From: Lampris incognitus
Lineage: Eukaryota > Chordata > Actinopteri > Lampriformes > Lampridae
DNA length: 64,000 nt
Assembly (NCBI RefSeq): GCF_029633865.1
Contig: NC_079222.1
Span: forward strand, 35,471,987-35,535,986
Direction of reading: 5' to 3'
Shown: in pieces, positions 9,501-52,700 of the stretch
Layout: each line of letters begins with the position of its first letter
How positions within the stretch are numbered: position 1 is the first letter of the stretch
The notes under the pieces: model-generated
Seen by the model: the letters and a program-made list of their open reading frames with translations, nothing else
Databases searched by the model: none
What the model was told of the DNA's origin: nothing
Position numbers and translations under genes: made by a program

Positions 9501-12500
9501 GCCAGTTCAAATCCGCGTGTTACCTCTGGCTTGGTTGGGCGTCCCTACAGACACAATTGGCCGTGTCTGCGAGTGGGAAGCCGGATGTGGGTATGTGTCC
9601 TGGTTGCTGCACTAGCACCTTCTCTGGTTGGTCGGGGCGCCCTTTCGGGGGGGAGGGGAAACTGGGGGCCTGGTGAAACTCCTCCCTGTCAGGTGAAAAG
9701 AAGCGGCTGGTGACTCCACATGTATTGGAGAAGACATGTGGTAGCCTGCAGCCCTCCCTGGATCAGCAGAGGATGGAACAGCGACCAAGATGGCTCGGAA
9801 GAGTGGGGTAACTGACCGAATACAATTGAGGAGGAAAAAAAGGGGGTGGGGGTTAAATAAATAAATAACCGCTGCATTTTCTGCAAGTCAAATTATTTGT
9901 ATTTTTTCTTCTGTGTCATCAATGTGTTCCATTAGGAGTCAGCCACAGGTGACCTACAATCACCTTTGACTCCAGAGAGTATAAACGGTACAGATGACGA
10001 AAGACTCACACCAGACACGCCTCAGCACACTGAACTCAGAGCAGAGCCCTTGCAGAACGCACTCCCGCTCTCACACAGGTAAGACACACAACGCCAGACA
10101 TTAGAGAAGTGACTATGAATAATAATGGTCAGTGGCTGGAGATAGAAAAACAAAGTTAAGCTAAGGGGGGGGGGCAACGTGCAAAAACGACTATTTTCAA
10201 ACTGCAACAAATACATAATAATAATAATCATCATCATCATCATTACATTTATATAGCGCTTTTCTAGACACCCAAATTGCTTCACATTGAAGGGGGTAAC
10301 TCAACTTTAACCACCACCAATGTGTAGCACCAACTGGGTGATGCATGGCAGCCATTTTCCACCAGAACGCCCACCACACATCAGCTTGAGGTGGAGAGGG
10401 AGGAATCATTGAGCCAATTACATGGGGGGATGATTAGGTGGCCAGATGGAGAGAGCCAGGTTGGACTCTGTCTGGCCAGAAGCAGCAGTCTCTGAACTCC
10501 AGGACTGTTTTGACAACACTGACTGGGGTATGCAAGGTTCTAAGGACAGGATGTTGTGTTGCTGTAAAGCCCCTTGAGGCAAATTTGTAATTTGTGATAT
10601 TGGGCTATACAAATAAAATTGACTTGACGACGTTGCGGTAAGTGCCATGGGATCTTTAATGACCACAGTGAGTCAGGACCTCAGTTTAACGTCTCATCCG
10701 AAGGACGGCATCTCCTACAGCACAGTGTCCCCGTCACTGCACTGGGGCATTGATAGTTGTTATTTTCATTAGGACCAGAGTGAAGACTGCCCCCTATTGG
10801 CCCACCGACACCACTTCCGGCAGCAACTCAGTTTTTTCCAGGAGGTCTCCCATCCAAGTACTAGCCAAGCCCGTACCTGCTTAGCTTCCATAATTTGGCA
10901 GAGCCAGGGTACATTTTGGTATGGCTGCCGGCAATAATAAACAAATGTAACGCACAAAAATGCAAACATTGTCTGTTTTCTTTTGCAGCTTTATGAGAAG
11001 ACATGTTGTAACAGCACATCTTTGATTCTCCTTCCGTTTAACATGAGTCAACATATACCGAACTGGGTTGTGTTAAATTCAGCACTATTAGTCCTGGTCC
11101 TTCTTGTCCATAAGGAGCTATGTCTTTAAAGTGCTGATTTAAAATGAAATTGGCACAGTACAGCACAGAGCGAGTACAGCCCACGCTGGCTGTGTTGACT
11201 TATCCAGCCATCATTTATTTAGCAGCCGAGCCCCTCGACAGCATTAATGCATTTCATTAAAACACTATGTGTGCCTCTTATTAATTATTAACTGCTAAAT
11301 GAGGGAGGAGGTATTTGGGCACCACATCCTTTCATCATACTTTGCAAGGTGCCACCTTTGCCTGAGGAGTTTATTAATACTTTGATGATTATTGATTATG
11401 CAGTGAGCCACATTTTTTGTGGATGAACATGTCAATATATTTTCATGTTATAGTATTTTGCATATCAATTAGAACGGGATTTTACCACCATGTTACCAAA
11501 TGTTGACCGATAAAGTTACGTAACTGCCCTTCATTTTATGCAAATGCAGAAAAGTCCGTCAAAAGGCATTTTAGCCAGGAGAACTGGTGAACAAACTGAT
11601 GATGTGCGGTGATATGTGGAGGCCTAACAAGACAGCCATGTCTGATTTATTTTATTGTTTTCAACCTTGACAGATAAATGTTTTTCACAAGCTTAATATC
11701 AACAGACACATGATTTGAAATTATCCTGATTAATTAGCTGTTCATTTGTAAAACATTTTTTTGCTATCTTTCTACCTCTACTTCATACTGCTTTGCAAAC
11801 CATGGCATCAGTAAATGGATAGTGTCACAGTGTAGACTCGCTAGCCCTTGGCTAACGGGTCAGACCCTTGAGTTGACTGGTTAGTTCAGTCACCCGTGGT
11901 GCGGGGAACCCAGGTTCGATTCCCGCCTCCCCCCTGAATTCCCGCTTCATTTGATGGCGGTGGTGGGATACATCTGCGCTCAGAGGCATGAGGGAGCTGG
12001 TATGCAGAAGCACGGGAACGCGCTCCCTGAAGAAGGAGTGTAACAGTTTACAACCATGGGTGACTAGACATGCTACCCCTTGGCTAACTGGTCGGACCCT
12101 TTAGTTGACTTAGAAGTACTGTAGTATTGTAGTAACTGCAGTATGGTACGACCACGGATGTGTAGACTCGCTAGCCCTTGGCTAGCAGGTCAGACCCTAC
12201 AGTTCACTTGTTAGCGCAGTCGTCCGTGGGAATATAGGGGGCAGGTGGGAATCGAACGTGGGTTCCCCGCAGCACGGGCGACTGCACTAACCAGTCAACT
12301 AAAGGATCTGACCCGTTAGCCAAGGGCTAGCGAGTCTACACATCCGTGGTCGTACCATACTACAGTTACAACAATACTACAGTACTGCTTACAATACTAC
12401 AATAGTATTGAATACTACAATAGAATACTACAATAATAAATATTACATACAATAATAGATAGAATACGACAGTAGTATTGCTGTTTAGAGTAAGGCAGAG

Positions 12501-26200: not shown

Positions 26201-29200
26201 CTGCTGGCACGTGCAAGTGCACGAAAATATGAAGATGTAAATAGAAAGAATATAAACTCTGACTCCAGCCTTGCTGATTGTTTTGAAATGTCTCTGAGAC
26301 GTCCACCATGATGGCTAGCTCCGCACCTGTCATTTGCCTCCGCAGACTCTGCAGCTGGGCAGTCAGAAGCAGCTCCTCGCAGCACAGCACCTCCGCCTTA
26401 ATGTCATACAACTGCAGCTGCAACTCATAGTAAAGTGCCTCCAGCTGGTCCAGGCGCAGCATCGCATCCTCCCCGTCCTGTAGATTTTGCATCTGGGAGC
26501 ATAGCCACATAGTCGCATTACTTCAATAACGGCGGAGGAGCACAAACGCACGTCAACAGCCTGAACAAACACGCAACGCTGAACTGAGCACTTCTTCTGT
26601 ATTCATGTAAACACGGTTTTGCTGTGACTGGGCTCGGTGTGTCATGCTCTCTGTTACCTCCTCCCGTAGCTTTTGTTTTCTCTGCTCCAGGCAGATCTCC
26701 TTGGCCCTCATCAGCTGGAGCGTCTCTTTGGAAACGGCATACTGCAGCCGCTCCATGCGACCCACTGCCGCCGCCCAGGCCGACCTGCCGATCTTCTTCT
26801 GGTCCGCACGCATCCGGTCGAACATGGCTGGATCGTGCACACAACGAGTAGTTTTTGTTACACACAAACGTCGACGAATACGAAGAGGAATACGCTCTAT
26901 GAATGGTAAAGGTACATGGAAAGGTTTTATGGCCAAACAGCAGTTAACTCCCCAAACTGTAAACGGTTAATAGTTGAGATAGTTCAGGGATTAAAATGCT
27001 GTGGGTGGACGGGGAAGCTTAGAGAAAGCAGTTTGGCATGTTAAAGGAGATTACTGTCTGAGGCAACACATGGCATTGAATGAGCTCATTGTAGGATGTC
27101 CCTACAGTTCAGCAAGCCATAACTGCAGCTTGCTATATAATGCAATTTAATGCTGAGGGCTTCTACAGGGTGATGCTGTGAGATGGTGATGTTGTTACGT
27201 GGTAACAGGAACCCTGCCGTGCTTGATAAAAGGACGGCAGTGGCGCTTTTCTGAGTTAACCTTTCTGCGCTCGGCTTGTCGTCTCGAAGAACTTGACGGT
27301 CAGGTCCTGTATGGAGAGCACGGCCGCGTGAGCCTTCCTCTGCCACTCTTCGTCCTCCTTCCTCAGGCTCTCCACACGACGAGGACCCAGGCGCTCCGTC
27401 TCTAAAGAAATCTGTGTGTGAGAGAGAGAGAGAGAGATACTTCACTGATCCCCGTAAGGGAAATTAGTCTCTGCATGTAACCCATCCTAGCTGTGTAGCT
27501 AGGAGCAGTGGGCAGCCGCCGTGCAGCGCCCGGGGACCGACTCCAGCTCGTCTTGCCGTGCCTCCGTCAAGGGCACAGACAGGAGTGTCAACCCTAACGT
27601 GCGTGTCTTTTTGATGGTGGGGGAAACCGGAGCGCCCGGAGAAAACCCAGCGCAGACACGGGGAGAACATGCAAACTCCACACAGGACGACCTGGGATGA
27701 TGCCCGAGGTTGGACAACCCTGGGGTTCGAACCCAAGACCTTCATGCTGTGAGGCGACAGCGCTAACCACTGCACCGTTGTGCCGCCACGGTGTGGCGTG
27801 TGTGTGGGAGAGAGGGGGGGGGTCAATGGACAACATCATGAGAAAATCACCCTTGGATCAAAACAGCTTAAACCTATTAGCATAACCAATGGTAGGAGAG
27901 GTCCAGTAAAACACAAAGCTTTTCAATGACGCCACGCTGTAATACCACTACGTACCAGCAGGTGGTGCTTTGGAGCGATTTAGAAACAAAAAACGTGCCT
28001 GAACACGTTAATGCAAAGAGTGACACTAACCTAGTGTCCTACTGTGGCGATAAACAGCACAACATGAAGTCTGAGTTACAGGGAGAAAAAATGAAACTGG
28101 ATAAAAGTAATCATTAAGGTGCTGAACTGTGGCAGGACACTTCCGCTTTGCCCAGCGGGAGTTCCTGTCCTCGTGTGTACAACGAACCGGACCGGGCCGT
28201 GTGAAACGGGAGAAAGAGGGGAAAGCGGTGCCACGTGGAGTCCTGTCCTGGGTGTTGTCCGTGTGTTAGATCCCCCCCCCCTCCCCTCCGAGCAGTACAG
28301 CTGGAACAAAATGTACTTTGAGCTTCGGGCTCGTACAAGCGCCCCCTCCCTGCGAGGGTCCGTGCATTCACACCCCTACACCAGCAGCCTAATATAAAAC
28401 ACGTGTGTGTAGGTGCTCGGAAGGGAACGGGTGGAAAAACCGCACGAGGTCTGATTTATTTCAGCCGACGACCTTCACGCCGCGTGTGTGTATGCGCGCG
28501 CACGCGTGCGTGTGTGTGATAGCGCGTGTTTCTGCACGTGAGCGCAAGGCGGAAAAAAAAGAAAAGAAAAAAGACGAGTGGTTTTGGCTAGAGAGGAAAA
28601 GATTAGGGGGGGAGGGGGGGAGGGGGCGGGCGGGACGGGACGGGGTGAGGTTGTCGGGAGACCAGAATCGGCGCGGCCTGAGAGGAAGTTCCGCTTGAGG
28701 GACTAACGCGTCCGCACTGCTCCCCGCGTGAGACCCAGCGCCTTCGTCTCGTAGGGTGAAACTTGAACAGAAGGGGGCGTCTCACCTCCAAGCTGGCGGC
28801 GGTACCTTTTGCTACAAGGGGCTGCGCCGTCCGACTCCGCGCCCCCTAGTTGGGGAATAACAGAGCGAACGAGTGCGTGGTGACGCTGGGCGTGACGGGT
28901 CACGGGCTTGCGGCTCCTCTGCTCCCGGGCCTCGCTTCACACTTGGAAACAGACACGTCGACGAGAAGGAGTAAAAGCACAAGGACCGGGCGTCCGGGTA
29001 GGGTGGTGGTCTTATTCCGTTGCCTACCAACACGGGGACCCCCGGTTCGAATCCCCGTGGTACCTCCGGCTTGGTCGGGCGTCCCTACAGACACAACTGG
29101 CGGGTGGGGAGCCGGATGTGGGTGTGTGTCCTGGTCGCTGCACTAGCGCCTCCTGTTCGGGGGGGGGCGTACTGGGGGTGATAGCGTGACCCTCCCACCC

Positions 29201-32200
29201 CCTGGTGAAACTCCTCACTGTCAGGTGAAAAGAATCGGCTGGTGACTCCACACGTATCGGCGGAGGCATGTGGTAGTCTGAGGGGGTGGAGCAGCAAGCT
29301 GGACGGCTCGGAGGAGTGGAGTCATCGGTCGGATACAATTGGGGGGGGGGTAAAGGGGGTAAAGGGGGTAAAAAAAAAAAGAAAAAAGCATAAGGACTGA
29401 GCAGAAGACCTCCAGCACGAAAACAATGAAGTTGTCTTAGAAAGAATGAAGCATCACCTCGGGACTAACTGTGGTGTAAATTCGAATACATAATAACCCA
29501 ATGCTACATATCCCCCCGCATGCCCAGTGATCCAGGTCAGGAAACCTCAGAAAGCTGACCCGGTTCATCCGGACACAAGCTTTACAGAGGGAGAAACGTT
29601 CCATCGCTCATCTGAGTGACCTCTGCAGTCGGCGAACCCTCCTCCAGGCTCGGGGTTTACTTTCTGCCAAGTCCCTCCTCCTCCCTCTTGACACGCCGGG
29701 GATGGTGACACAACACACAACACAATCCATCATCCAAGCCGCTTACCCCAACCGGGGTAGTGGAATGCTGGAGCCTATCCCAGCAGCCACTGGGTGGTAG
29801 GCGGGGAGACACCCTGGACAGGCCGCCGGGCCATCACAGGGCCCACACACACACACACACCTAGAGACAATTTAGTATGGCCGAGTCACCTGACCTACAT
29901 GTCTTTGGACTGTGGGGGGAAACCGGAGCCCCCGGAGGAAACCCACGCAGACACGGGGGAGAACATGCAAACTCCACACGACCCGGGACGACCCCCCCCA
30001 AGGTTTGGACTACCTCGGGGCTCGAACCCAGGGCCTTCTTGCTGTGAGGCAACCGCGCTAACCACTGCGCCACCGTGCCGCCCCCACACCCTAATCCCTA
30101 CCACATAAATAATACACCACCCCTACCACAGACCATAAAACAGCATTCAATTAGCGTTTTACGTGTTCCTGGAATACACACGAGGTAGGGATGGTGGACT
30201 CTGCTGCCAAGGCCAGCCCACGTATCATAAATAGTAGTAAGTATAGCCACATGGAGTAACGGGCCAAAGTCCACTGTTCTGAGTGTAAGTAAATAAGGTC
30301 ATACTGACAGAAACCTTAACGTTTAGTTGGTAGTACTGCTCAAGACGGGAGAATAAAAAGTACACCCCAGCGTAGTGTTAAAGTCGCTGTTGTGCAGCGT
30401 CTGCCAGGTTATCAGTAAAACAAATCTCGAGTCGCGTGGAATAATATGACCTTTCTGCAAAAGCGAAGGCGCAAACATTTTGGAAAAGCTGCTCCAAATC
30501 AAGAAAAACTGCAAATATCAAAAAGCATATACAAAAAAAAATAACTAAAGTAAATGCATCAGCAGAAACACACTGCAAGAGAAGAAACAGGTTAAAAAAA
30601 ACACAACTGCAAATAGGAGATGCGGTGCAAGTACGTAAATGCTGCAAAAACACATACAAAAATGGAAAAACAGCAACAAAGACGGAAATGTCACGAAACC
30701 GGTTGGTACAACAGAAGTGCTCCAGGCCACCAGGGGAAGTCATACAAGTACTCCTTCCAGTCCAGTCCAGTACCTGCGAGTTAACAGCTATGTTTCATAT
30801 GTCATGTAATACATGAACGATCTATAAACAGTTCTGGCCTCTCATTCCACGGTTACTTTTTCATGTAACACGAACCGACTCAGAATGGGGGGGTTAAACG
30901 GTTCCTTGAGCACGTGTATCAGCAAACAAAGAAGGGAAAACAATCCAAGGTACACGTGACAAAAGGTAGGTTGGGATGTGGTTACCTGCAGCGGGACCTG
31001 CCTAACGTGAGTGCTCGTGTGTTCATGTTGACTTTCGTTTTTTTAATTAACCACATTTTTCTTTTTCCAAGCATTTTCAGAAAATCATCTGGCAACCCCC
31101 CAAAATTGTTCGGTGGCTCCCCAGGGGGTCCCGACCCGCAATGTTGAGAACCACTGGCCAAGACGACCAAGCAGCTGCAGGAATACGAGGTCGTCCGGAG
31201 ATCTGGTCCCAGGGCGTCTGGGTGGCGTGGCTCTCTATTCCGCTGCCTACAAACACGGGGATCGCCGGTTCGAATCCCCGTGTTACCTTCAGCTTGGCCG
31301 GGTGTCCCTACAGACACAATTGGCCGTGTCTGCGGGTGGGAAGCCGGATGTGGGTATGTGTCCTGGTCACTCGTGCAGTGACCAGGACAAACCTTATGAC
31401 CAATTTCTGTGTAAAAGGGCCGCATAAACTGACCTATTTTTACGTTTGTGGAGCGGCTCGTCGCAGCGCATGCGCACCGCTTACTCTCACGCCTGGTGTA
31501 GCCACTTTCATTGATCATAGTGAAAGCGTAGTGTTGCACCAGCCGCTCCGCGTACAGTCTGGCTACATTAAAAGGCCAATGTAGCCAAGGGGTTACAACT
31601 AATCTCTCTTTGTGTTACAGCCAGTTAATATCTAACCTCGCTAAATAGGCCGATAATGTTATATAGCCGCTTATATGAAATGGCTGTGGTAGCTTTCCTC
31701 TACGTAAGCTTAACGTTAGCTAAGATTAGGTTGCATTGGAAGGATTTGTCTAACATTACACAGATGTTTATGCCCGTTATGTGCCTTTTTAATGCCCTTT
31801 GTGCGTCTTTACGCATCTTTGGCCTGTGTCATAAGCAACGAGAGCAAATTAAGAACAAAATCTTCAATTTTAAGATTACTAATCACAGCATTCAAGCAGG
31901 TAAACAGTCATATAAAATAGGCTGCAGTTGTTAATTAATTGGTCAAAAGCCGTTAAGGTCGGTTGTCAGATATAAAGCTCAAACCTGTTAGAAATAATCG
32001 AGAATAAACTGAAGCCATTCCCCCCTACACTGTGCAACTATAGCCTGTATACCTTCTGCCAGTTGGCCATTATAAATTCAGAATACTCCTTGACGATAAC
32101 ATAATGTCATATCTAATCAAAGAAAAATGTCTGGAGCAAACATGAGCTCAAAGGGAAGACGAACAGGAGTCATCCTCCATACGGCACCCGTCCACATCTG

Positions 32201-37746: not shown

Positions 37747-40700
37747 TTTTCTTCACAATACAGAACATGCTGCCACATCCCCTGATTCATCAGTTTGGAA
37801 TTAACCAACAGCCTCTGTCGACTCTGCATCAGGAAACGATTTGCATACGACTTTGTTTTCAGCCGTTGGACCGGCCTGGGGGTGGCAGGTGGCTGAAACA
37901 GAAACTTAGGCATCAGGAAAAGTTAAGAGTCTCAACAGGTTAGCAAACCATAACTGAACAACAAGATGCATGGGGGCTGAACTGGTTTCGTGTTGTTGGT
38001 AGTTACAGTAAACTCATGAATAAACTAAAATCGACTTGAACATTTAAACCTCAGACCGCGTGCTGAGGGCCGCGGTTTAAATGCACACAACATATTCACA
38101 GTAAAACAAGCCCATCAAAAATGAAACGATGTGATTAGGCAGACTTCTGCTGTTTAGTGTCGTAATGATTTTTGACAGCCGGTAGACTGGGTAAAGGGGG
38201 GTAGATCTCGAGGGCATTTGTTAAAAACAAAAAAGAAATTAATGAAAAAATACAGACCCTACGTATCGCTGCAGAGATGATCCAATGACTCAAAACAGAG
38301 TAGGGGCGTCCGGGTGGCATGGCGGTCTATTCTGTTGCCTACCAACACTGGGATCGCCAGTTCAAATCCCTGTGTTACCTCCGGCTTGGTCGGGCGTCCC
38401 TACAGACACAATTGGCTGTGTCTGCAGGTGGGAAGCCGGATGTGAGTATGTGTCCCGGTCGCTGCACTAGCGCCTCCTCTGGTCAGTCTGGGCGCCTGTT
38501 CGGGGGGGGGGGGGGCTGGGGGGAATAGTGTGATCCTCCCACGCGCTACGTCCCCCTGGTGAAACTCCTCACTGTCAGGTGAAAAGAAGGAGCTGGCAAC
38601 TCCACATGTATCGGAGGAGGCATGTGGTAGTCTGCAGCCCTCCCCGGATCGGCAGAGGGGGTGGAGCAGCGACCAGGACGGCTCAGAAAATAGGATAATT
38701 GGCCAAGTACAATTGGGGAGAAAAAGGGGGGAAAAGTCCACACAAAAAAAAAAAAAAGTAGGAAAAAAACAGGCCTAGTATGCAATCACTTCAACTAGGG
38801 TGGTCTATGACCAGCCAGTTTTTAAACTCGGCCATCCAAAATTTTGAATGAATAAATGAATGAATGACTGACTGTATTTCTATAGCATTTTTCTTGTCTT
38901 AGGCCACAAAGCACTTTACAAAATAAACAACTGCATCACATTACGGTGAGGGTGGCCCAATAGGTAAACAAACCCCAAACATGGGCAGTATTAGTGCACT
39001 GCTAAACACCAGGACCTCTGCTGACAGAGCTACATAACCACAATAATCCAGTCAATAACCAGTACCTTCAATTTGATCTGTGATAGCACACCTGCCCATT
39101 GCCTACACAAAGTCAGAAAAATCAATTCTTTTCAGCATTTCAACGAGACAGTAACACAAGGTGCACAAAAGGGTCACGTATGGCAAACCAGATGGTACTT
39201 AAGGAAATCTTCCTTACAAGCACGTAATTACACCAGACTAGTTAAGCATTTTGCCTCCAATAAGGACAGAATGACACTTGAAAAGTCTCTTTTTTGGGAC
39301 CTGAAATTCAATTTACATGATACAATTATTCTTTTTGATAGTTGTTGCGGAGGAGAGCATTTCAACTCTGCTTTTTCTAAAAGCAACCTTTTATTTCTGC
39401 AAATGAACATGGGTACCGTCCCTCAGCAAAACAATTTAGGTATAGAGGATTTGTGCTAAATCTAATGCATCCAACCAACATGGCAATAAGAAGCAGTACA
39501 CACATAAACTCAATAGGAAACAAGAGCAGAAGTCAAAAAAAGTTGAACAGCTGTCACCTCTCATAATGACTGCCCAGGTTTTGGTGTTAGCCCATGTGTA
39601 TGCAGTTCTAAAATCCTGAGTGTTAATTTAACCCTGAGAGTGTACAAATTGATCCTTTCGGGTCTATTTGTACACTTTCAGAGTTAAATGAACACTCAGG
39701 ACGTTAAATTAACACACATGATTTTGCTGTGGCTGTGAGAAAATCAAGAAACGCTGCTTTCATGATAATGTAGCTGTTGCTTTGACCACTTAAGTACTCA
39801 CAGTTGGCTCGTGGTGTCCTCAATCCTATATTACTAGCCAGAGCCTATTCAGGCAGCCAAAGATGAACTTTTAGTAGAAATCAAAATTGATTCAAGAAGC
39901 TGTTCTGTTGATTACCTTTAAATGGCCAAGCTCCATGTTATATTATGGTACCCTTACCTCCTTCCCCTCATTTTACCTATTTACAGAGCTGCACACTCAA
40001 GTTAACCATGGAGGCCACAAGATGGTAAAAGATAGTAAAGAAGAGTCTGCAAAACACCGGTCACCTCAAGTTTGAAATTAGACCAAAAAAACAAAACAAA
40101 AACAAAGATGGAGCAGAGAAAGAGTGGATAGGAGATCGTGCTGAGGCCGCAGAATTACAGAGAGGTTTAGCAGCTGCTTTAATAATACTTATGCTGGTTG
40201 TTAAGCTGCTCTTAGTGGGAGAAAGCTTCTCTGGCTGATCCTCTACGCTGTTTGGCCCCCTTTAGTTTGCAGACGTAGAGCTACAGTGTGGTTCAGACTG
40301 GCTGCTGCACCATCACCACAGCCAAGTTAGCCTCTGCAGCTAATGCTAACATCACAACAGAGGACTTGGTTCAGACTGGCTGCTGCACCATCACCACAGC
40401 CAAGTTAGCCTCTGCAGCTAATGCTAATGTCACAACAGAGGACTTGGTTCAAACTGGCTTCTGCGCCATCACCACAGTCTAGTTAGCCTCTGCAGCTAAT
40501 GCTAACGTTATAACAGAGGACTTAAGACTGAAATCTCCGTTCAGGACACTGGTTTAGGCTAATTTAAACCAGCTAAATCACAAATAGGACTACCATACAA
40601 ATATCCTACATTGCAGTAAATAAAAGCAGCCTACTGTGGTGAAAATGTCCTCCACAGCAAACCAATTAGATCTTGAACCTACTTGAATCAAGCCCCAAAG

Positions 40701-43700
40701 CAGATTGTCATGTGTCTGGGTTACCTTGATCTGCTGTCTGCAGAGCATGGCCAGTTCCCTCATGTCTCTAAACGGCTGAAGCAGGTAGTGGTAGAGCTGA
40801 GTGGTGGCCTCCATAAGGTCTCCGTAGGCCTCGTCTTCCTCGGGGTAGACTTGTAGCAGCTCAACCATGCTGTCCATGGCACGATGCTTCTCCAACAGCT
40901 GGGGAAAGAAAATACTGAGTCGTAGGGCTGAAATATTCAATTTCCTCAAGGTTTAATATTTTATAACTTTGAGACCTAATTCATCTGACCAATCCTAAGG
41001 AAGAAAAAAAAGTTTCAATAAACAAGAAAATGTTATCAGGCATAAAAGTGAAAAGCCCACATAATGACATGTTTGGACAGTGAAACAGTATGATGCAAGT
41101 ACTGTTGGTTCATTGATACAACTGGATTTAATTCCGCGTTGTGGTCCAACTCTAAAACTTACTGAGTTACATTTGGACCGAAACAAGGCATCGTCAAATT
41201 TTAAGGGAAACACGCAAGGCTGCTTTTCCAAGAGCAGGGCTGACATAAGAAATCGTGCGTGCAGTTAAAGTGAGACCATAAAACACACAATCTCAAACAA
41301 AGGGAACGAATTGGCACAACAAGTCACTGATTTGTACCACATGTGCAGCGATCTACACAGACTGTGCATTGTTTGTGAGATAAGCGCTATGAACACACGC
41401 AATTGTGCGCTCATTGTCTGCTTGCGCTCAGTAGCAAGTAGCTCAGAATACAACACAGCTCCTTCAGCTCTGCCTCAGATAACAGTGAAATGTATCACCA
41501 CTGCCCAATCTCGGTCCGAAACAGTAAATAAAAGGTTGTTTTTTTTTCTATTTTATGTCTAGCAAAGAAAGTGATGGATATGAATAGAGACTCTTATATT
41601 AACTAACAACTGGTCTTGCACAGCCCTCCACTTTGGGGACTGAGGTACACACTGCTTGATTCAATGCTTAACACTGCTCCCACTGTTTACCTTGGCCCTG
41701 TGTTGCCGTGGTAACCACTGTCCAATCCCAGCCCGGGTCCTTTAACCCTGCAGCTGCTACTGGTAGGAAAGTCCTCTAGCGGTCTCCTACCCGGACACGA
41801 GAGGTAGACCTGTGCTAAACTGCAGACGTCATTCCCGGGTTAACTCTAAAACTCACTTCCCTCAAACGTTGTATAACCGGTCCGGTGCAAGCGGTGGACG
41901 GTTCCTCTCCACTGGGGGACATTGTCCTACAATTAAAGAATAAAACAGATACTGGATGGACTGACGTAACTTCCAACGGGGGGGGGGGGGAACTTTCGGA
42001 ACATTTTTCAAATTTGGAGTTCGTAATTTTTCAACAGTTGTACCTTGACATTTTAAAATCTGTTGACAGAACAACGTCCCAGATTGATTCTTTGTGCGGA
42101 TGATAAAATCAGCAGGAGACAGATTGTCAAATATTTCTCAAATATGCAATACATTATTATTTTTTATTATTATTATTATTATAATTGTTCTTCATTGCCC
42201 CATGCCACAACCACCCTTCATCAGGTATCCAAGCCGGTCTGCTAAAATCTGCCAACATTTCAAAACAGCTGCAGGGATGATGAGTCACTTTTTCTGGTGA
42301 AGTGTTCAAAAGGTCATCGCTACTCATGGCTTGGCTTTCTTGCTTTGTTTTGTTTTCAGATTAAAACATTTTGTCACGAGATAAAACGGACTATTTAACC
42401 ATGTAGTGTTTCCGTTGTCTGTTTTTATTGTTTTATTGCACCATCAAGCACTTCGAGATTGTGTCTGAAAATGAAAGGGGCTATATCAATAATTTATCAT
42501 TATTATTATTATTATTATCAATTACTTTGTGTGTGATACATGTATTGTTCTTTCTTCTTCTTTTTTTTACTTTTACATACTCCAAAACCAGTCCTACCCA
42601 CACAACCTTTCAAATAGGGACAAGGAAGCACAGGAAGTTAATTCCGGGCCTGTTGTGGTAAATACAGGGGAGGAATTGTTGTGTGTGTCTTTCTTCACAA
42701 AAGTTAATCGCTCAAACAAATCCTAACTGGAATGAAAAGGAAACGCAACAAACTTTGGGTTGATGCTGAAAAAAACAAAAACAAACTATCAAACAAATGC
42801 AACATCTTTAGCACCAGCTGGTATCTCAACAAAGATGATGATGATGATGATGATGACGCAGCTCAGTGTAAACTGTCATTTTTCCACATTTCCCATCAGA
42901 AAACTGCCTCCCAAGAAACCAACAAATAAGTCCGGGTAGCATAGCAGTCTATTCCGTTGCCTACCAACATGGGAGTCGCCGGTTCGAATCCCCGTGTTAC
43001 CTCCGGCTTGGTTGGGCGTCCCTACAGACACAATTGGCCGTGTCTGCGGGTGAGAAGCCAGACGTGGCTATGTGTCCTGGTCGCTGCACTAGCGCCTCCT
43101 CTGGCTGGTCGGGGCGCCAGTTCGGGGGGGGGGGGGAAGACTTGGGGGAATAGCGTGATCCTCCCACGCGCTACATTCCCTTGGCGAAACTCCTCACTGT
43201 CAGGTGAAAAGAAGAGGCTGGCGACTCCACATGTATCGGAGGAGATATGTGGTAGTCTGCAGCCCTCCCCAGATCGGCAGAGAGGGTGGAGCAGCGACCA
43301 GGGCAGCTTGGAAGAGTGGGGTAACTGGCCAGATACAACTGGGGAGAAAAGGGGGGAAAAATCCCAAGAAATAAAAAAATAAAAACAACAAATATGAGAG
43401 AGATCTCTGTGTTTTTGATGAGACTTCAAGTATTTTTCTTCATTCATTCACCATGGAGGGGCTCAGGAACTTCCTCCCATCTGGAACTGCCTGCTCTCAC
43501 AATGTGAAGAGATCTTAATGAGAACATTAATGGAAACAGATCTAACCCTCCTTAGATCCATCAGTTCTTTTGACCTACCAACCAGTTTCAACATTATGCA
43601 CCATTGTAACAATACTGTTGCTGTACTTTTTGTCCCAAACCTAGTCAAGTGACTGCAGCAGTGAACATCTTCTCCAATGTTCCCAAGCCAGTCATCAAGT

Positions 43701-46700
43701 ATGTTGATGATATGAGCAATGCAGCAGTAGCCAAGCTCAAATAAGTACACCAGGCAACCAGGAGGGAACTCATGATGTGGCATCCATACTCTCCCATCGA
43801 TATTATCCGCTCACCGGTCTCGCAGTGGAAACGCTGCCCCCCGTCGGCAACGTAAACAGAAGAGGGGGAAATGTGGCGGGCTACATGCTGAGCTAAGTAG
43901 CGCTCCCTTCAAAGTTTCCCTCCCCAGCATCTTCGTGGCTAATGTCCGGTCGTTAGCTAACAAAATGGACAGGATAAGCTCAGGCTGTCCTCTCAGAAAA
44001 GGCTGCAGAACTGCTGATGTTTACGGAGACTTGGCTCAACAGCAACATAGCCGACTTGGCAGTCGAGCTAGCGGGCCGCACAGCCTTCCGTGCCGACAGG
44101 ACAGCGGACTCCGGCAAGATCTGCGGAGGACGTTTGACTGATTATGTCAATAACTCTTGGTGCAACAATATTGTAGCGAATTCAGGGGACAACGCAACCA
44201 CAGGAAGTGCCGCGGCCGGGAAGCGAACCCGTATCGCCCGCACCGCAGGAGACATTGCTAATCGCTCGACTAAAGGGTCAGACCCGCCAGCCAGCGGCCA
44301 GCGTGTCTTCTTATCCATGCACGTTACACTACCCCCCTCCTTCGGGAAGCGCGTCCCCACGCTAAAGCATATCAGCTCCTTCACGCCTCAGGGCGCATAT
44401 GCTTCCGATGGCCTTACGGTCTCACCATCCCACTTCTGACACCAATGTAGCGAATTCGGGGGACAACGCAACCACAGGAACTGCCACGGCCGGGAACCAA
44501 ACCCGTATCGCCCGCACCGCAGGAGACATCGCTAACCGCTCGACTAAAGGGTCAGACCCGCCAGCCAGCGGCCAGCGTGTCTTCTTATCCATGCACGTTA
44601 CAATATAAAGATCGTCGAAAGGCATTGCTCTGCTGATCTCGAGCTCCTTACGATTCAGTGCAGGTCTTTTAACCTGCCCAGGGAGCTAACGGCCATTACC
44701 ATCGCCGCTGTATACACCCCCCCACATGCTAATGCTAAGGAAGCACTTAAGCAGCTACAATTTGCCATCAGCAGACAACAGACCAAACACCCGGACAATG
44801 CCTTTATCATAGGTGGTGACTTTAATCAGGCTAACCTCAGGGCTGTATTGCCCAAATTCCATCAAGATGTCTCCTGCCCCACTAGGGGACAAAACACCCT
44901 GGACCATCTCTATACAAACATCAAGGACTCATACAAAGCTACTCCCTGTCCTCATCTGGAGCATTCTGACCACCTCTGCCTGTTCCTGGTCCCAGCCTAC
45001 AAACCCCTAATAAAACGGGTCAAGCCAGCAGTAAAGACAATCACTGTCCAGCCAGAAGGAGCAGTCTCTGAACTCCAGGACTGTTTTTAAAACACAGACT
45101 GGAGTATTTTTGCACATTCAGCTACCCATGGCTCCCATATAGACATTAATGAACAGACATCTGCCATACTAGCCTACATTAACTTTTGCACTGAGAGTGT
45201 CACAACAAAAAAATCAGTCCGCACCTTTCCAAACCAGAAACCCTGGATGACCAGTGAGGCCTGGCAGCTGCTGAAAGTCCAGGATGCAGCGTTCAAGTCA
45301 GGTAACTGTGGGGCCTACAGCGCAGCCAGATCCAACCTCAAAAAGGGCATCAGAAGAGCCAAACATAAATATTCCCTACGAATAGAGGACCATTTTCACA
45401 ATAACTCTGATCCTCGGCAAATTTGGCAAGGCATTCAGTCTATCACAGACTACAAAAGCTCTAATTGCGGTCCCACTGTCCATGATGCCTCCCTGCCAGA
45501 CAACCCAGCCACAAAAATCCCCAGCCACCCAGAAAACCAGGTACTCACTCTATCAGTCGCAGAGATCAGAGAATCACTGCGCAGAGTGAACACACGGAAG
45601 GCTGCCGGACCAGACGGCATACCGGGTTGGGTCTACCGGGAATGTGCCGACCAGCTGGCTGAGGTCTTCACACCTGTATTTAATCTCTCACTGTCCCAAT
45701 CTAAAGTCCCGGCATGCTTTAAGACCACCTCTATCATTCCTGTCTCCAAGAAACCAACATCCACATGTCTGAATGACTACTGACCCATAGCACTCACCCC
45801 CATTGCCATGAAGTGCTTTGAGAGACTGGTTCTGGCTCACATCAAAAACATTATCCCCCCCACATTCGACCCACATCAATTCGCCTACCGTCCCAAAAGG
45901 TCTACTGAGGATGCCATCGCCACTGCCCTGCACGTTGCTCTGACCCACCTTGAACTTAACAACACATACATCCGGATGCTGTTTATAGATTACAGCTCTG
46001 CCTTCAACACTATCATCCCTGCCAAACTAACCACCAAACTCCTCTCCCTTGGCCTCAACCCCTCCCTCTGTAACTGGATCCTGGACTTCCTGACCAACAG
46101 ACCTCAGTCTGTTAGGTTAGGTGACCACTCCTCCTCCACCCTGACCCTCAGCACAGGTGCCCCTCAAGGCTGTGTTCTGAGCCCCCTCCTTTTCTCCCTC
46201 TTTACCCACGACTGCCTGCCAACTCACCCTTCAAATGTTATAGTTAAGTTTGCAGATGACATCACAGTCATTGGCCGTATCACCAACAATGACGAGATGG
46301 CCTACAGGGACGAGATTCAGCACCTCACATCATGGTGCATTACCAACAATCTTGTCCTTAATGTGCAGAAGACAAAGGAGCTGATTGTGGACTTCAGGAG
46401 GTCTAGAAGGTGCAGCCACTCCCCCATTCACATCAATGGGGTGGAAGTGGAGCGTGTTTCCAGCTTTAAATTCCTTGGAGTCCACATCAGTGAGGACCTT
46501 TCGTGGATATTAAACACCCAGGCCCTTGTGAAAAAGGCCAGACAACGCCTGCATTTCCTGAGGAGGCTGAGGAGCGCCCGTCTATCCCCCAAAATTCTCA
46601 CCAACTTCTACCACTGCACCATAGAGAGCATCCTGACCATCTGCATCTCAGTATGGTACAGCAACTGCACCTCAGTAGACCAGAAAGCTCTGCAGCGGAT

Positions 46701-49700
46701 CGTCAAGGCGGCCCAGCATATCAGCCATAAAAGACATTTATCACAAACGCTACCTTCGAAGGGGTCTGAGCATCAGCAGAGATCCCACCCACCCCAACCA
46801 TGGACTGTTCTCCCCCCTGCACTCTGGGAGGCGCTACAGGAGCCTCAGAGCCCGCACTACCAGGCTCAAAAACAGCTTTTCCACAAGCTGTTGCCCACCT
46901 GAACCTGGCTACCCACTGAATGTCTGTAGATATTTTTAAATATTTTGTACTCCAGCTCTCTTTTAACTTATTTTTAGCTTTTGGTCTTCATGTGTGTATA
47001 TCTTATATTGTGTTTGCTGTGTTTACCTGTGTCTGTCTTGCACCGTTTGGTGAGGCCACAGCCCTCATTTCATTTTTAACACGTTGTGCTTGCACATTAT
47101 TTTTAATGACAATAAATTGAATTGAATTGAATACTGCAGTATCAGCCAACCTGGGGCGCTGATACCTGCTACAGCTTTACATTCCAGACAGACTCTTCCA
47201 GTTTAGCAGCCTTACTCTGCCCGGTCTTGCTTGGGTAATGTTGTCTCTGCCTTTTAATTTGAGTGTCTGAGAGAAGAAATGAGCCCCCTCGTATGAAGTG
47301 ACTGGAAAACCTCGCTTTGACAGCGTACATCATTTTTGACCCATTAGCTGGGAGCAAAAGTGTTTAGGAACCGTAAAAAAAAAAAAAAACAAGGCTTCCA
47401 TTGCAAATCAAGTCTCAAGATAAATGTTGGTGGTCCATCTCACAACATGCATTTTATGGAAAATTCAGACACGTAATATTATTGTTTCCTGAACGGTATG
47501 AAGTTTATGAGTTGACGTACTATGGTCAAAGAAATTCTTGTCTGGCGACTGGCAGAACCCCAACGTAAGTGTGTTAAAGAGAGAAAGGGGTACTAGTGCG
47601 ATACGAAGCCGCTGTAAGGATGATTAATACCTTTACTCTTCTGGATCAGAAACAACCCACGGGGGGTTGTGGAAGGAGTATGAGAGGTGCCTGAAGCAAG
47701 AAAAAGCTGTTCTAACAGGCAGCATGCACTTTGTAGTAATGTGCCTCAATGCATCTGGGTCAAAGAAAATAAATATTAATGTAGTTCAACATTTGTTAGT
47801 AATACAAAGTAAAATTACCTCGAATAGAGCTATATATGGTCTAAAATGATAACGTGAATAAAGTAATGTGCAAAAATCTATCTTGGCTAAGAAAAGTATT
47901 GTGGAAATGCCACTAAGGTTTTTGCAAATGAATCCTATGGTTGCGAAGGGAACCTCTCCCAACACCTATTAGTGAGGCCACATGTCTAAATCACATTGTA
48001 TGTAAAACACAGACACAAACACAAACACACACACCTACATATGAAACTATACATATACCACCAAACACATATATAGAAAAAATATGTATTGGAAAATCTG
48101 TACACAGATTACACAGTGAGATTATATCTTTAAACAAATGTATGCCAGACTTCTACCCACCGGAGGTGACTCATCTCTGCAGCGGACAGAGTTGCAGTTT
48201 TATTGACTCGGCGTTGCTATCAAAATAAACTTTTGCATGCGCTGCTAACCAGAGACTAATACACCGAACTAGAATATTTTCTAGGGTTTCCCTTTTCAAC
48301 TTGTGTGCTCCATCTCCCACCAGGGTATTAAGTTGTGTCCTTGGGAAATAACATGCTGCATGAATCTGTATCTGGTGTAAAGTTAAATCCTCTGCATTTC
48401 GAAAATGATGTAAAATGCAGCCTGCAAGGTTTTTCTCATGTAGTGGCAGTAGAGGACAGGTTTGATATTAACTTTTGATGACTGAAAATCACAAACCATT
48501 ACTCCCAGTGAGACATGTGCTCTCAGCACTAGTTGCATCACTGTAAGCTGCATCTCTATCACGGCTGCTCAGGCAGTGTCCCTTATTTTACTGTATTTTA
48601 TCCCTGGGAATTCATTCAACACCACTTAGCAGTGATATATTTTTAATCACATACTCCACTTGATCATATATCTTAATAGTATAGTCCTCCATTCCTCAAT
48701 AATGTCTTTGGAATTATACACTACAATTCATGGGGGCGGGGGGTAGCAAAGCTGTAAGGTTAAAATTAAAATAAAGTTAAGTAAAGTTAAAATTTCAAAA
48801 AGCAAAAGTTCCAAGTACCAAAAAGTAAGTTTTTTAAGTAAAAAAGTAAAAGTTCCAAGTACCAACAAGTAAGAGCTCCAAAAAGTAAAGTCAAAGTAAA
48901 GTTAAAATTCCAGAAACCTTTCACAATTTCATGTATGGTCTAAGAATTACCGAGTTAAGCCAAACACACAGAAGCAAAGCGACAACTCAGATGACTAACG
49001 TCATACGCCGTCTGCAGCCCAAACAGGAAGAGCCAACCGACGCATGGCAGGTGTTTTTAGCACCGCGCAAAGACTTTTTTTTTCTCAAAGAAAACACAAG
49101 TCTGTAGGAGCATCAGTACTGGAGAACAGAACATTGTTGTAAACAGCTAAGGCACATCAGATACATGTGTTTAATTTTCAGGTTAGATGCCACCGGTGTG
49201 TTCTGTGGGGACTCGGATCACAGTACTTGAAATTGGGTCTGACCTGACCAGAAATTTCAGGAACTTGAGACTTGACTTTACTTCTAATGACTCGAGACTT
49301 GACCTCGGACAATTTATAAATAGGTTCTTTTCCTGCATAGAGAATTCCATGATGGCTGCCTTCATCAATTTCCATGACGCCTACACTAAAATCAGACCAG
49401 TGTGAACTTTAATAAACTTGTTTCAAAAGTGAGGCACTTAAAGGATAACAATTATTTGTAGGTGCAATGGCTTCATTACTCCAAGATGGCCCTCAATCAC
49501 AACCATTACAGGGCACCTCAGTAACAAGGAGATGCCAACAAATATTACTGCTGAGCTACAGAAAGCATATCTACTCCTGTCAACTGTCTGGACTGTGAAG
49601 CAACTACTTTTTGCACCTAAGAACTTCTAATATTTACCAAAAAAGTTAGCTTTCCTCTCGGCTATTCTATTATTTTCGACCTTCCAGAAAGGGTTAACAA

Positions 49701-52700
49701 GGAGGATGAGGAGGAAGACAGGGGAAGAGACAACGTAGCAACACACAGCCTCGTCTTCATCCAGAATGTTATTTATGGGTATCTGGATAGCATAGATGTC
49801 TATGCTGTTGCCTACCAACACGGGGACCGCAGGTTCAAATCCCAGTGTTACCTCCGGCTTGGTCGGGCGTCCCTACAGACATACTTGGCCGCGTCTGTGG
49901 CCGTGTCTATATCGGTATCAGATGAAATTACCATGGAAATCATAGGTTACTGGGTATCAACAAATATGTCAATTTGATGCCTCCTTAGTTGGAATGCTAG
50001 CATTATAGTCTGCTGCACCACACAAGCAACCTCCAAGCTAGTTTCTTTGTTAAGTGTGGTGCCAATTTATGTTTACCCACCTCAATAAATGTTCAACTGA
50101 ATATAGTTATAGTAAATACATAAATGCTTTTAAGGCACTTCTATTTTTTAAGGCGCCGCGCGTCACCCAGTACCGTCCATGGAGTGTTTGTCCAAATCTG
50201 CGTCAAAGTTTGTTTTGTCTTCATTTGATGGCTGGGAGAGCAGGCGCTGGATTGGCTGGGACAGCTTGGTCTGCTGTGTCGTGTGGGCCCAGGGATCACG
50301 GCCCTGACTGGAGCCGCACCCGAAGAGGTAACACCAAGGGCGGTCTGACAGGACCGGGGCAGGTTAAGCTAACTGCTAGCCCATGCAGACTGGCAGTTCT
50401 GATAACATCGAGGGTGGTCTGGTGGCGGCCTCGCCTAGTTTTGACTGTGTTTTCGTGTCGTTGTGTGGAGTGCGGGGAGGTGTGTTGAAAGTGTCTGGTT
50501 GGGAGAACTGGCGCTGGATCGGCTGGGGGAGCCTGGTCTGCTGCGTCCGGTGGGCCCAGGGACCACGACCCTGCCGGAGCTGCGCACAAGGAGGAAACAC
50601 TGAGGGCGGTCTGACAGGATGCGGAAGCGGGACAGGCTAAGCTAACTGCTACCCCATGCAGACCGGCAGTTCCGACAGTCATCCCGGATGGCGTTCGTTC
50701 TCTGGACAGTGGAATTTTTTTGACTGTGTTGCACTGAGTGGACTGTGTTGTTAGTTGTTTGTGTTTTTTTACTTTGGTCTCTCTGTTTTTGTGAGTTTTT
50801 GATGGTCTTGTTTTTGGGAAATTTGGGATGTGTGTTTTTGTCTTTTGTGTCGCACTGCTGTGGGCGGGGGGGCAACGGAATTTTGTTTCTTTTGTGTACG
50901 CAGGTACATGAGAGAAAGGACAATAAATTGTTCCTGATTCCTGATTTATCATTACGTTGTCCACTGTAATGATATATTCTGGCAAAATCCGAAAACTTTT
51001 GGAATATCCAACACCTATTTTTCTTACAGAAGAGTCGGTAACACTGCTTGCAGCTCTTAAGTGAACTATGTCCTTACAAGTGTCAGGCCTACTGAATACT
51101 AACAGAATAAAACCATGTATGTGTCCATCGGAGAACTCGTTCAAATAAACATGGCCAGTGCTTATGTCAAGTCACGTTTATTTGTATAGCCCTACATCAC
51201 AGTTAAGTCCCAGAGGGCATTGCATTCTCCACATGTACTTATTAACTCAATGCTTGGATAAGTGGGTGCTGAGTGTTGGGATTTCTCATGATGCAAGATC
51301 AGAACCAGACTGCGGTCTTGAATGTCTGGGAAAATTATTGTTCTCAAAACACGGATAAGCAAATCCCCCTACGGGCAATAAAGGTTTTATTCACACACAG
51401 AGAAACAGTCACATAGCGGCATATTTGACTGGCTCTGAAAAAAATTATCTTGCACCTATCCACACAAATGTAATCTTGGTCTGTTTTAATGTCCTCCCCT
51501 ACTATACTGTGAAAATACAGTATATCATTCCTATAGTTAGCAAAAAGATAATTATAATGCTCTATAGTAGGTCTTGGAAACGTTATGTTTGTATGCTTAT
51601 TTTATTAATAACAGTAATCCTGTAGTATTCTCAGTGCTATATGACAATAAAATGTTATAATTAACTGGTCATCATGATAATCTCATAGTATTTTCAGTTA
51701 TCAGTGTATAATAGTACTATCTACGGTATGTTTGTTTAAAGTGATATTTCGATACAATTTAGGGCTAAATATCTATAATACCGCTAATCACTATAGCAAC
51801 ACTATAAAAACACTATCACATAATCATAAGTCTTCTGTAGATTAACTGTAATGAACTATAAAATCATTATAGCTAAATGTATAGTATAAGCATAATACTC
51901 TCTATAGTATTTATAACAATAAAAAAAAGCCAGTCCAAAAAACTACAAGAGAAATTATACTATAATCAAATAATATAATTATTATATAATCACACACGTT
52001 TATATAATTAAAAAATATAATTATAATATAATATACTATAAAATAATTAAAGTATAATGAGAAATACTACCGTACAATTGTAAGTTTTTTCTATGATATT
52101 TCTGTAGTAAATAATATTGCTTGTAGATTTATACCATAATTATTTTTCAAATGGGCAGAATAAAATATAATTTCGCCCAGCTGTAGTACTAGTGACTTTG
52201 TTCTTTTCCTAAACAAATTCTTTATTGAGGCTAAACCGGTACAGGACTCAAACGGAAATGACCCAGTCATCTGCCTTGTTGATGTACTGTTGGTGGTGTT
52301 GGCATGAATGAAGCTAGTTCCCAGGAAGACAGCAAGCACGTGAACACTGGCGTCATCCTCTGCCCAGATGTTTGATTGATTCCACATACAACGACAGTTC
52401 AGTGGTCTCCACCCATTTCTACAAAACTTTTTGCTTTGGAGCTCTCCACCCTCCAACCTGCAATGCATTGTGTCTGGCCTCATGAGCCCCAGGGCTGCAG
52501 CAGGATGCATGGCAGATGCTGCTACGCAATGATGCAAGTGTCATCACAAAGAAATATTCCTCCTGCCTGCAATTTATTTATATTGAGATCGTACACATAA
52601 AGTGTCAAATTTACAGGGGTTTTGTGTATCAACACTATCTTGTGAATTTATTTTCACTTCTCCTCTCTACTTTGACAATGCAGCTCCAGCTTTATTTCCT

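Follow-up and report, generated by a model that had tools for sequence, protein, structure and literature searches.

The window analysed here, a stretch of 64,000 nucleotides from Lampris incognitus (contig NC_079222.1, positions 35,471,987 to 35,535,986), contains at 44172-44602 a 431-bp element bounded by long terminal repeats (LTRs). We consider, with a probability of about 0.8, that this element belongs to a family, F1, of Helenus-type terminal-repeat retrotransposons in miniature (TRIMs) whose RNA is started by RNA polymerase III (Pol III) and which is copied by the proteins of another element, the gag-bearing family found at locus L046 being the best candidate. TRIMs with tRNA-like LTRs have already been named Helenus (Kojima 2024, PMC10886601; this and the other papers are cited from excerpts). 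Judged by its anatomy, the window element is a member of this already described kind.

According to the mechanism that we propose, F1, itself non-coding, would parasitise an autonomous LTR retrotransposon that probably belongs to the Gypsy group. Its RNA would be started in the 5' LTR by a tRNA-like promoter, made of an A box and a B box, and would continue through the interior and the 3' LTR, since TTTT stops and poly(A) signals are absent from all the elements examined. The RNA would then be packaged, reverse transcribed and integrated by the proteins of the helper, with tRNA-Leu priming at an 18-nt primer binding site (PBS) and a hairpin of the LTR as the likeliest additional cis signal.

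Structure and dispersion of the F1 family

All the parts listed by the first-pass annotation, namely two 157-bp LTRs with TG...CA ends, an 18-nt PBS, a polypurine tract, a 117-bp interior and an ATAT target duplication, were reproduced (Table 1). With a size below 1 kb, no coding capacity, a PBS and a polypurine tract at the ends of the interior, and A and B boxes and tRNA-like sequence in the LTRs, the element has the plan of Helenus; this likeness is one of anatomy, not of sequence compared with LTR-11_DR or another published consensus. The primers also agree: vertebrate members of Helenus are primed by tRNA-His, tRNA-Leu or tRNA-Lys (PMC10886601), and F1 by tRNA-Leu.

We searched the host assembly (1.48 Gb, 537 contigs) with the 431-bp element and scored 40 of the 2919 first-look candidates, which yielded 47 matches, 46 of them near full length with 94-100% identity. 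Because of these genome-wide copies, the element represents a family, and structure and copies together confirm a miniature LTR retrotransposon family in a vertebrate, as had been proposed. The interior alone gave 1948 first-look candidates, and the genome holds 2012 exact F1 3' LTR ends that are not followed by a PBS. These ends are skewed by orientation (1399 forward vs 613 reverse), the 100 listed, all on contig C1, being mixed; the excess may come from a long one-directional array elsewhere. Two patterns searched in viral contigs gave no match.

Loci L001-L030 provided 31 entries with complete outer LTR ends, reduced to 27 after dropping those with the same flanks and structure; one of them is a solo LTR. 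A perfect 4-bp duplication, as in animal members of Helenus, bounds 21 of the 27 entries or, counted by distinct upstream flank, 19 of 25 sites. The motif RTAY is found in 18 of these 19 duplications, vs a background of 1.46% in the window, and all 19 have a TA core. The first 100 entries in the list of 2012 3' ends all lie on contig C1, and 79 of these 100 have RTAY after them. Among 20 single elements with equal-length LTRs, the two LTRs differ at a median of 6 of 157 positions (3.8%; range 1-9).

F1 also occurs as tandem arrays with shared LTRs, as do members of the Helenus family LTR-11_DR (PMC10886601). Arrays L007 and L017 have an identical duplication at both outer ends, and array L013 has none. 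One duplicated site carries one unit in L016 and L027 and two units in L017 and L028, with nearly identical flanks. Since the number of units differs at nearly the same flanks, the sequences point to a gain or loss of units by LTR recombination after insertion.

The F1-type PBS without the F1 continuation is present at 622 places in the genome, the reversed control giving 0 matches. Thirty of them were fetched, the first in contig order and all on contig C1. By their LTR end, 28 are Helenus-like and two (L046 and L060) are of another type. The first-pass annotation had regarded copies with gag or pol between the same LTRs as the sign of a chance deletion. Copies are many and none with gag or pol was seen, neither in the LTR-interior-LTR structure of the F1 entries, nor in the sequence after the PBS of the 28 Helenus-like loci (read to 1.5 kb past the PBS), nor in the open reading frames (ORFs) of eight of these 28. 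Furthermore, several families of this genome (F1-F5) share the tRNA-like LTR.

A putative tRNA-like promoter in the LTR

The first-pass annotation reported an A box in each LTR and a B-box-like sequence about 43 bp further on. The A box is exact in the 5' LTR (TAGTCGAGCGG), whereas the 3' LTR reads TAGTCGAGCGA; the B-box-like sequence is present in both at the 43-nt spacing, with two mismatches in the 5' LTR and one in the 3' LTR. The A box of F1 has the form TAGTC...CGG, with T and not C as fourth base, and the B box is modally GGTTC in F1 and GGTTT in the 5' LTR of the window. Such base preferences are a tendency and not a definition of Helenus (PMC10886601).

An A box paired with a B box at tRNA-like spacing, with at most two mismatches, is rare by chance: of 4000 LTRs simulated by a Markov model, 0.075% had one, and 30 simulated windows of 64 kb gave 0.13 per window with both strands counted. 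In the Helenus-like loci, a pair within the thresholds applied to them is present in 15 of 28, and 13 of these 15 have the 43-nt spacing. Moreover, the LTR is co-linear with tRNAs, in agreement with the tRNA-like character first suggested for it: positions 60-115 of the F2 LTR align with tRNA positions 7-62, and positions 77-115 of the F1 LTR with positions 27-65. The best alignment scores were matched by 0, 1, 0, 2 and 13 of 300 shuffles for F1, F2, F3, F5 and F4, respectively, F4 being weaker; each family was represented by one LTR copy, aligned with seven tRNAs.

Neither TTTT nor AATAAA/ATTAAA occurs in any of the 27 F1 entries, so that transcription by Pol III could pass through both LTRs. 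From these features, Pol III transcription of F1 appears plausible.

Several observations weigh against such a promoter. The A/B pair does not pass the thresholds in 13 of the 28 Helenus-like loci, and two of the pairs that pass are spaced by 48 and 51. At position 58, the F1 B box carries C in place of A (GGTTCGCTTCC) in 55 of the 57 LTRs. The family-majority box is non-canonical in four of five families for B and in three of five for A: F1 and F3 have a canonical A but not B, F2 a canonical B but not A, and F4 (a single LTR in this comparison) and F5 neither. When families are compared, other 11-mers are better conserved than the boxes, of which A ranks 77 and B 42 among 147. No tRNA was predicted: ARAGORN, run with bacterial settings, called no tRNA gene in any of 29 loci or in the window, and the LTRs gave no match to the Rfam model RF00005 at E up to 10 and no cloverleaf; a prediction of this kind is not demanded of Helenus by its author (PMC10886601). 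The absence of TTTT is not unusual, as 42% of simulated sequences lack it too. Finally, the conservation of the A box can also be explained by a hairpin. Young F1 copies, chosen as best matches, show no higher conservation in the boxes (0.974 for A, 0.962 for B) than in the rest (0.975); hence copies of a single family are uninformative on selection.

A probable conserved hairpin in the LTR

The strongest alternative is that the A-box motif is kept because one arm of a hairpin contains it; this hairpin, conserved as RNA or DNA, would serve packaging, dimerisation or strand transfer, and F1 would be transcribed by Pol II or by read-through from outside. We regard this as possible but rather doubtful. 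The fold of the 5' LTR does contain a long hairpin whose 3' arm includes the A box, the whole-LTR z being only -1.54. A first, regex-based hairpin set was biased by its own pattern and was replaced by an LTR alignment free of hairpin criteria, in which the segment is exactly 59 nt long at 144 of 169 LTR places. The other 25 places, whose segment has another length or too many gaps, were excluded; the 144 correspond to 111 distinct sequences, some loci overlapping.

A structure of 24 pairs, derived from the same sequences that are used to score it, gives standard pairs in 90% of the cells over the 111 sequences, vs 23-48% for slid partners and 88.4% +/- 0.2 in shuffles, none of 500 reaching it. 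Changes on both sides of a pair affect 43 cells, vs 20 +/- 3.5 in shuffles, again with none of 500 reaching this value. Pair 6-56 is clearly compensatory between families, being A-T in F1 and F3 and T-A in F2 and F5, and pair 9-52 changes from C-G to T-A in F3. The mean energy z ranges from -2.6 to -3.3 per family, and from +0.6 to -6.4 for single sequences. However, 221 and 228 of the 500 shuffles reach the observed number of double-change pairs and of pair types, respectively, so that neither number exceeds that of shuffles. Pair 16-44 forms a standard pair in just 41%, and F4 disrupts both 6-56 and 9-52. Conservation of the 59-nt hairpin across the five families is thus moderately supported by this model, and the hairpin is a candidate packaging or transfer signal.

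Some observations speak against this alternative. The B box lies outside the hairpin, the 43-nt spacing is kept in most loci with both boxes, and the LTR is co-linear with tRNAs; against Pol II transcription stands the lack of a poly(A) signal in the F1 entries mentioned above, no search having been made for a TATA box. Promoter and hairpin may also coexist. We tentatively suggest, as an idea that is more speculative than the Pol III-started TRIM itself, that one LTR segment could do two jobs: as DNA, its A box and the B box 43 nt further on would recruit Pol III, and as RNA, its hairpin would be the packaging or strand-transfer signal of the helper. If so, LTR, PBS and polypurine tract would make up a naturally minimal, fully parasitic retroelement with a specific helper having an RTAY integrase, and the methylations of its primer tRNA would be recorded in genomic fossils.

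A largely dispensable interior and related families

Eight of the 28 Helenus-like loci have an interior of only 53-54 nt (PBS, about 14 nt and polypurine tract), and one has 47 nt. The junction typical of this short interior has 131 exact matches, dispersed over contigs. Ten such loci were inspected: perfect ATAT duplications bound L067 (366 bp) and L064 (311 bp, with a shortened 5' LTR), L050 has another PBS after it, and seven could not be delimited. The existence of this subfamily means that most of the Helenus-type interior is dispensable, and for this reason the hairpin would be the likeliest further cis signal for packaging or strand transfer. Another locus, L068, is a chimera in which three LTR-like stretches occur together with two exact PBSs; the sequence after the first PBS is unrelated to the F1 interior. 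This structure suggests template switching.

An older relative, overlooked by the first-pass annotation, is present in the same window (11823-12362). It belongs to a distinct family, F2, with 3442 first-look candidates, longer matches of 77-89% identity and nine regions read. F2 has the same plan as F1, with a canonical B box GGTTCGATTCC in seven of nine first LTRs and an A-box-like TAGTTGACTGG in most of them, the two being 43 nt apart in the window copies. Its PBS differs from that of F1 (TGGTGGCAGCGGTGGGAT, exact in four of nine) and presumably matches another tRNA-Leu isoacceptor at its 3' end. The 22-mer of the corresponding tRNA end has seven exact matches in the genome. No plain tRNA gene was found at the three of these seven places that were fetched (L082-L084; ARAGORN 0 of 3), where the 22-mer is followed by CCA in two cases and by CTA in one. 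One of these places, L083 (C16:10378420-10378560), resembles the F1 primer fossils described below but involves another element: an LTR-like end and a PBS for another tRNA-Leu type precede a tRNA 3' part with CCA, to which an inverted LTR-like end is joined. Head-on LTR-LTR junctions also recur in F2, at 12144-12362 of the window and as adjacent plus and minus matches in the genome; they are possibly aberrant strand-transfer products.

A helper candidate in the same genome

Locus L046 has a PBS identical to that of F1. After this PBS comes a gag-like region that is broken but includes a zinc knuckle scoring above the Pfam cut-off, and the LTR end of L046 carries AATAAA. Its 5' region gave 841 first-look candidates in the genome. 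As in F1, RTAY follows 11 of 13 3' LTR ends of this family, the ends being found by pattern. Gypsy clades of Drosophila differ in their target motif, which is ATAT in 297 and TRYA in gypsy (PMC3276498). Since target motifs differ in this way, the agreement of F1 and L046 in both PBS and target is informative, and it makes the gag-bearing L046 family the best candidate for the helper of F1.

The first-pass annotation had proposed to look for an autonomous partner with the same PBS and LTR ends. L046 shares the PBS, the CA end and RTAY, whereas the F1 LTR shows no similarity to L046 by BLAST. Some points weaken this link: PBS, CA end and the bases after the 3' end are all that L046 shares with F1, and neither pol nor the full LTR, length or duplications of L046 were seen; RTAY was compared in the F1 and L046 families only; and the placement of L046 in the Gypsy group is presumptive. 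Another gag-like stretch, near L048, was set aside since it starts 923 nt after the PBS, beyond the second LTR of the element (97-230 nt after the PBS).

It is very improbable that F1 arose by chance as an internal deletion of an ordinary LTR retrotransposon and lacks a special promoter. Some TRIMs do arise by deletion (PMC10886601) and F1 has the PBS of a gag-bearing family, but its LTR shows no BLAST similarity to L046, the inspected Helenus-like loci showed no coding sequence beyond the PBS, and the tRNA-like LTR is common to several families. That a SINE (short interspersed element) or a tRNA-derived tandem repeat was mistaken for an LTR element can practically be dismissed, since the tRNA-like sequence and the arrays that would suggest it come with 4-bp duplications, PBS, polypurine tract, TG...CA ends and LTR identity within elements, two arrays (though not L013) also sharing the duplication at their outer ends.

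The tRNA-Leu primer and its fossils

Complementarity of the F1 PBS to tRNA-Leu has a modal length of exactly 18 nt and ends opposite A58. This length is the classical one of the plus-strand strong stop. For HIV-1, the stop has been attributed to m1A58 (PMC13191261).

The tRNA-Leu 3' end pattern has 39 matches in the genome, of which 11 are fossils borne by elements. Four of the 39 places were fetched and correspond to two tRNA-Leu genes called by ARAGORN, one fossil and one sequence resembling an intron-bearing tRNA-Leu. CCA is not encoded in the three tRNA-Leu genes read (L078, L080 and L081). Each of the 11 fossil places (L085-L095) joins an LTR end to a complement of tRNA-Leu that starts with CCA and is 26-65 nt long; an example is L089 (C9:3229575-3229915, the same place as L079), and L093 and L094 are nearly identical.

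In five fossils (L085, L086, L088, L090 and L095), the tRNA complement ends at 46-48 nt and LTR sequence follows; in the six others, it ends at 26, 28, 28, 40, 60 and 65 nt. Counted from the 3' end, G37 of tRNA-Leu(CAG) is residue 49 according to the anticodon position given by ARAGORN. The five ends at 46-48 nt therefore lie just before G37, where methylation of the base would block the enzyme. m1G37 is found in tRNAs that read codons starting with C, except CAN, as stated for Salmonella, and in HIV-1 a minor strong-stop product that stops at the modified base 37 is useless for strand transfer (PMC13191261). We infer from these junctions that the enzyme copied the primer beyond A58, often halted at G37 and switched template to an LTR, in direct or inverted orientation. 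The fossils are unproductive by-products, yet they are physical evidence of the identity of the primer. Elsewhere, at C2:33744523-33751705, seven tRNA-Leu 3' ends lie in a local tandem series whose period is about 2.4 kb.

Comparison with known elements

Helenus was defined from consensus sequences and includes families from ray-finned fish and coelacanth; the Gypsy-type helpers of its animal members were inferred from PBS similarity, and Pol III transcription is undemonstrated according to its author (PMC10886601). Total lengths range from 311 to 1263 bp, with an interior of 85 bp in a Selaginella family (PMC10886601). Here, a single vertebrate genome links a Helenus-type element to a helper candidate by both PBS and integration target. 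The same genome shows which part is dispensable, namely most of the interior, and indicates a specific RNA structure. Also preserved in it are products of aberrant reverse transcription; five of these end where methylation of a tRNA base would block the enzyme. Neither the excerpts of PMC10886601 nor the literature searched mention the RTAY motif together with a helper in the same genome, the LTR hairpin, the 53-54-nt interior or the primer-tRNA fossils; in this literature, the only other LTR-element paper naming Helenus is a meeting report (PMC12859917, likewise from an excerpt).

Ajax, a nemertean TRIM with a partial 5S, resembles F1 in the TRIMp3 concept and in its tRNA-Leu primer but is 5S-derived and has 5-bp duplications (PMC10886601). 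The plant TRIM Cassandra also carries Pol III promoter-like sequence in its LTR and forms tandem arrays (title of PMC7215508), and its transcripts end within the 5S part of the 3' LTR (PMC10886601), whereas the 27 F1 entries have no TTTT. This sequence is 5S rRNA in Cassandra and tRNA-like in F1, and an Rfam scan of 43900-44900 gave no 5S match at E up to 10. The Drosophila elements 297 and Transpac are, unlike F1, autonomous insect elements. They resemble it in their 4-bp duplications and in a target motif of high information, ATAT (PMC3276498).

Setting of the element and other repeats in the window

Table 1. Features of the F1 element and of its F2 relatives in the window (coordinates counted from the first nucleotide of the window).
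Feature	Coordinates	Strand	Remarks
Helenus-type TRIM, family F1	44172..44602	-	LTR-interior-LTR, 431 bp
5' LTR of F1	44446..44602	-	157 bp, TGTAAC...GCTACA
59-nt hairpin segment, 5' LTR	44525..44583	-	A box within its 3' arm
A box, 5' LTR	44536..44546	-	TAGTCGAGCGG
B-box-like sequence, 5' LTR	44493..44503	-	GGTTTGGTTCC, 2 mismatches to GGTTCGANTCC
PBS	44427..44444	-	TGGTGTCAGAAGTGGGAT, 18 nt, complement of tRNA-Leu 3' end including CCA
Interior	44329..44445	-	Non-coding, 117 bp
Polypurine tract	44329..44343	-	GAAGGAGGGGGGTAG
3' LTR of F1	44172..44328	-	157 bp, 7 differences vs 5' LTR
59-nt hairpin segment, 3' LTR	44251..44309	-	
A box, 3' LTR	44262..44272	-	TAGTCGAGCGA, one change
B-box-like sequence, 3' LTR	44219..44229	-	GGTTCGCTTCC, 1 mismatch to GGTTCGANTCC
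Target site duplication	44168..44171 and 44603..44606	+	ATAT
Older, decayed F2 element	11823..12112	+	LTR 11823-11950, interior 11951-12038, 3' LTR fragment 12039-12112
Canonical B box of F2 LTR	11913..11923	+	GGTTCGATTCC, 43 nt after decayed A box GAGTTGACTGG starting at 11870
F2 LTR fragment	12144..12229	+	Head-on junction with inverted F2 LTR
Inverted F2 LTR	12230..12362	-	A-box-like TAGTTGACTGG, B box CGTTCGATTCC, spacing 43

The F1 copy of the window is inserted in a LINE (long interspersed element), the ORFs 43978-44439 and 44548-45090 sharing their frame across the 435-bp insertion; another LINE frame (45784-46902) matches RVT_1. Exons of JMY are also present in the window, as expected of a vertebrate host.

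The window also contains copies of an abundant dispersed repeat, the longest of about 450 bp, at 5075-5489, 9434-9846, 14467-14908, 21520-21962, 28988-29386, 31212-31371, 38291-38757, 42930-43388 and 49774-49900. With a tRNA-type A/B pair at 21938 on the minus strand (TAGTGCAGCGG and GGTTCGAATCC), this repeat is probably a fish SINE.

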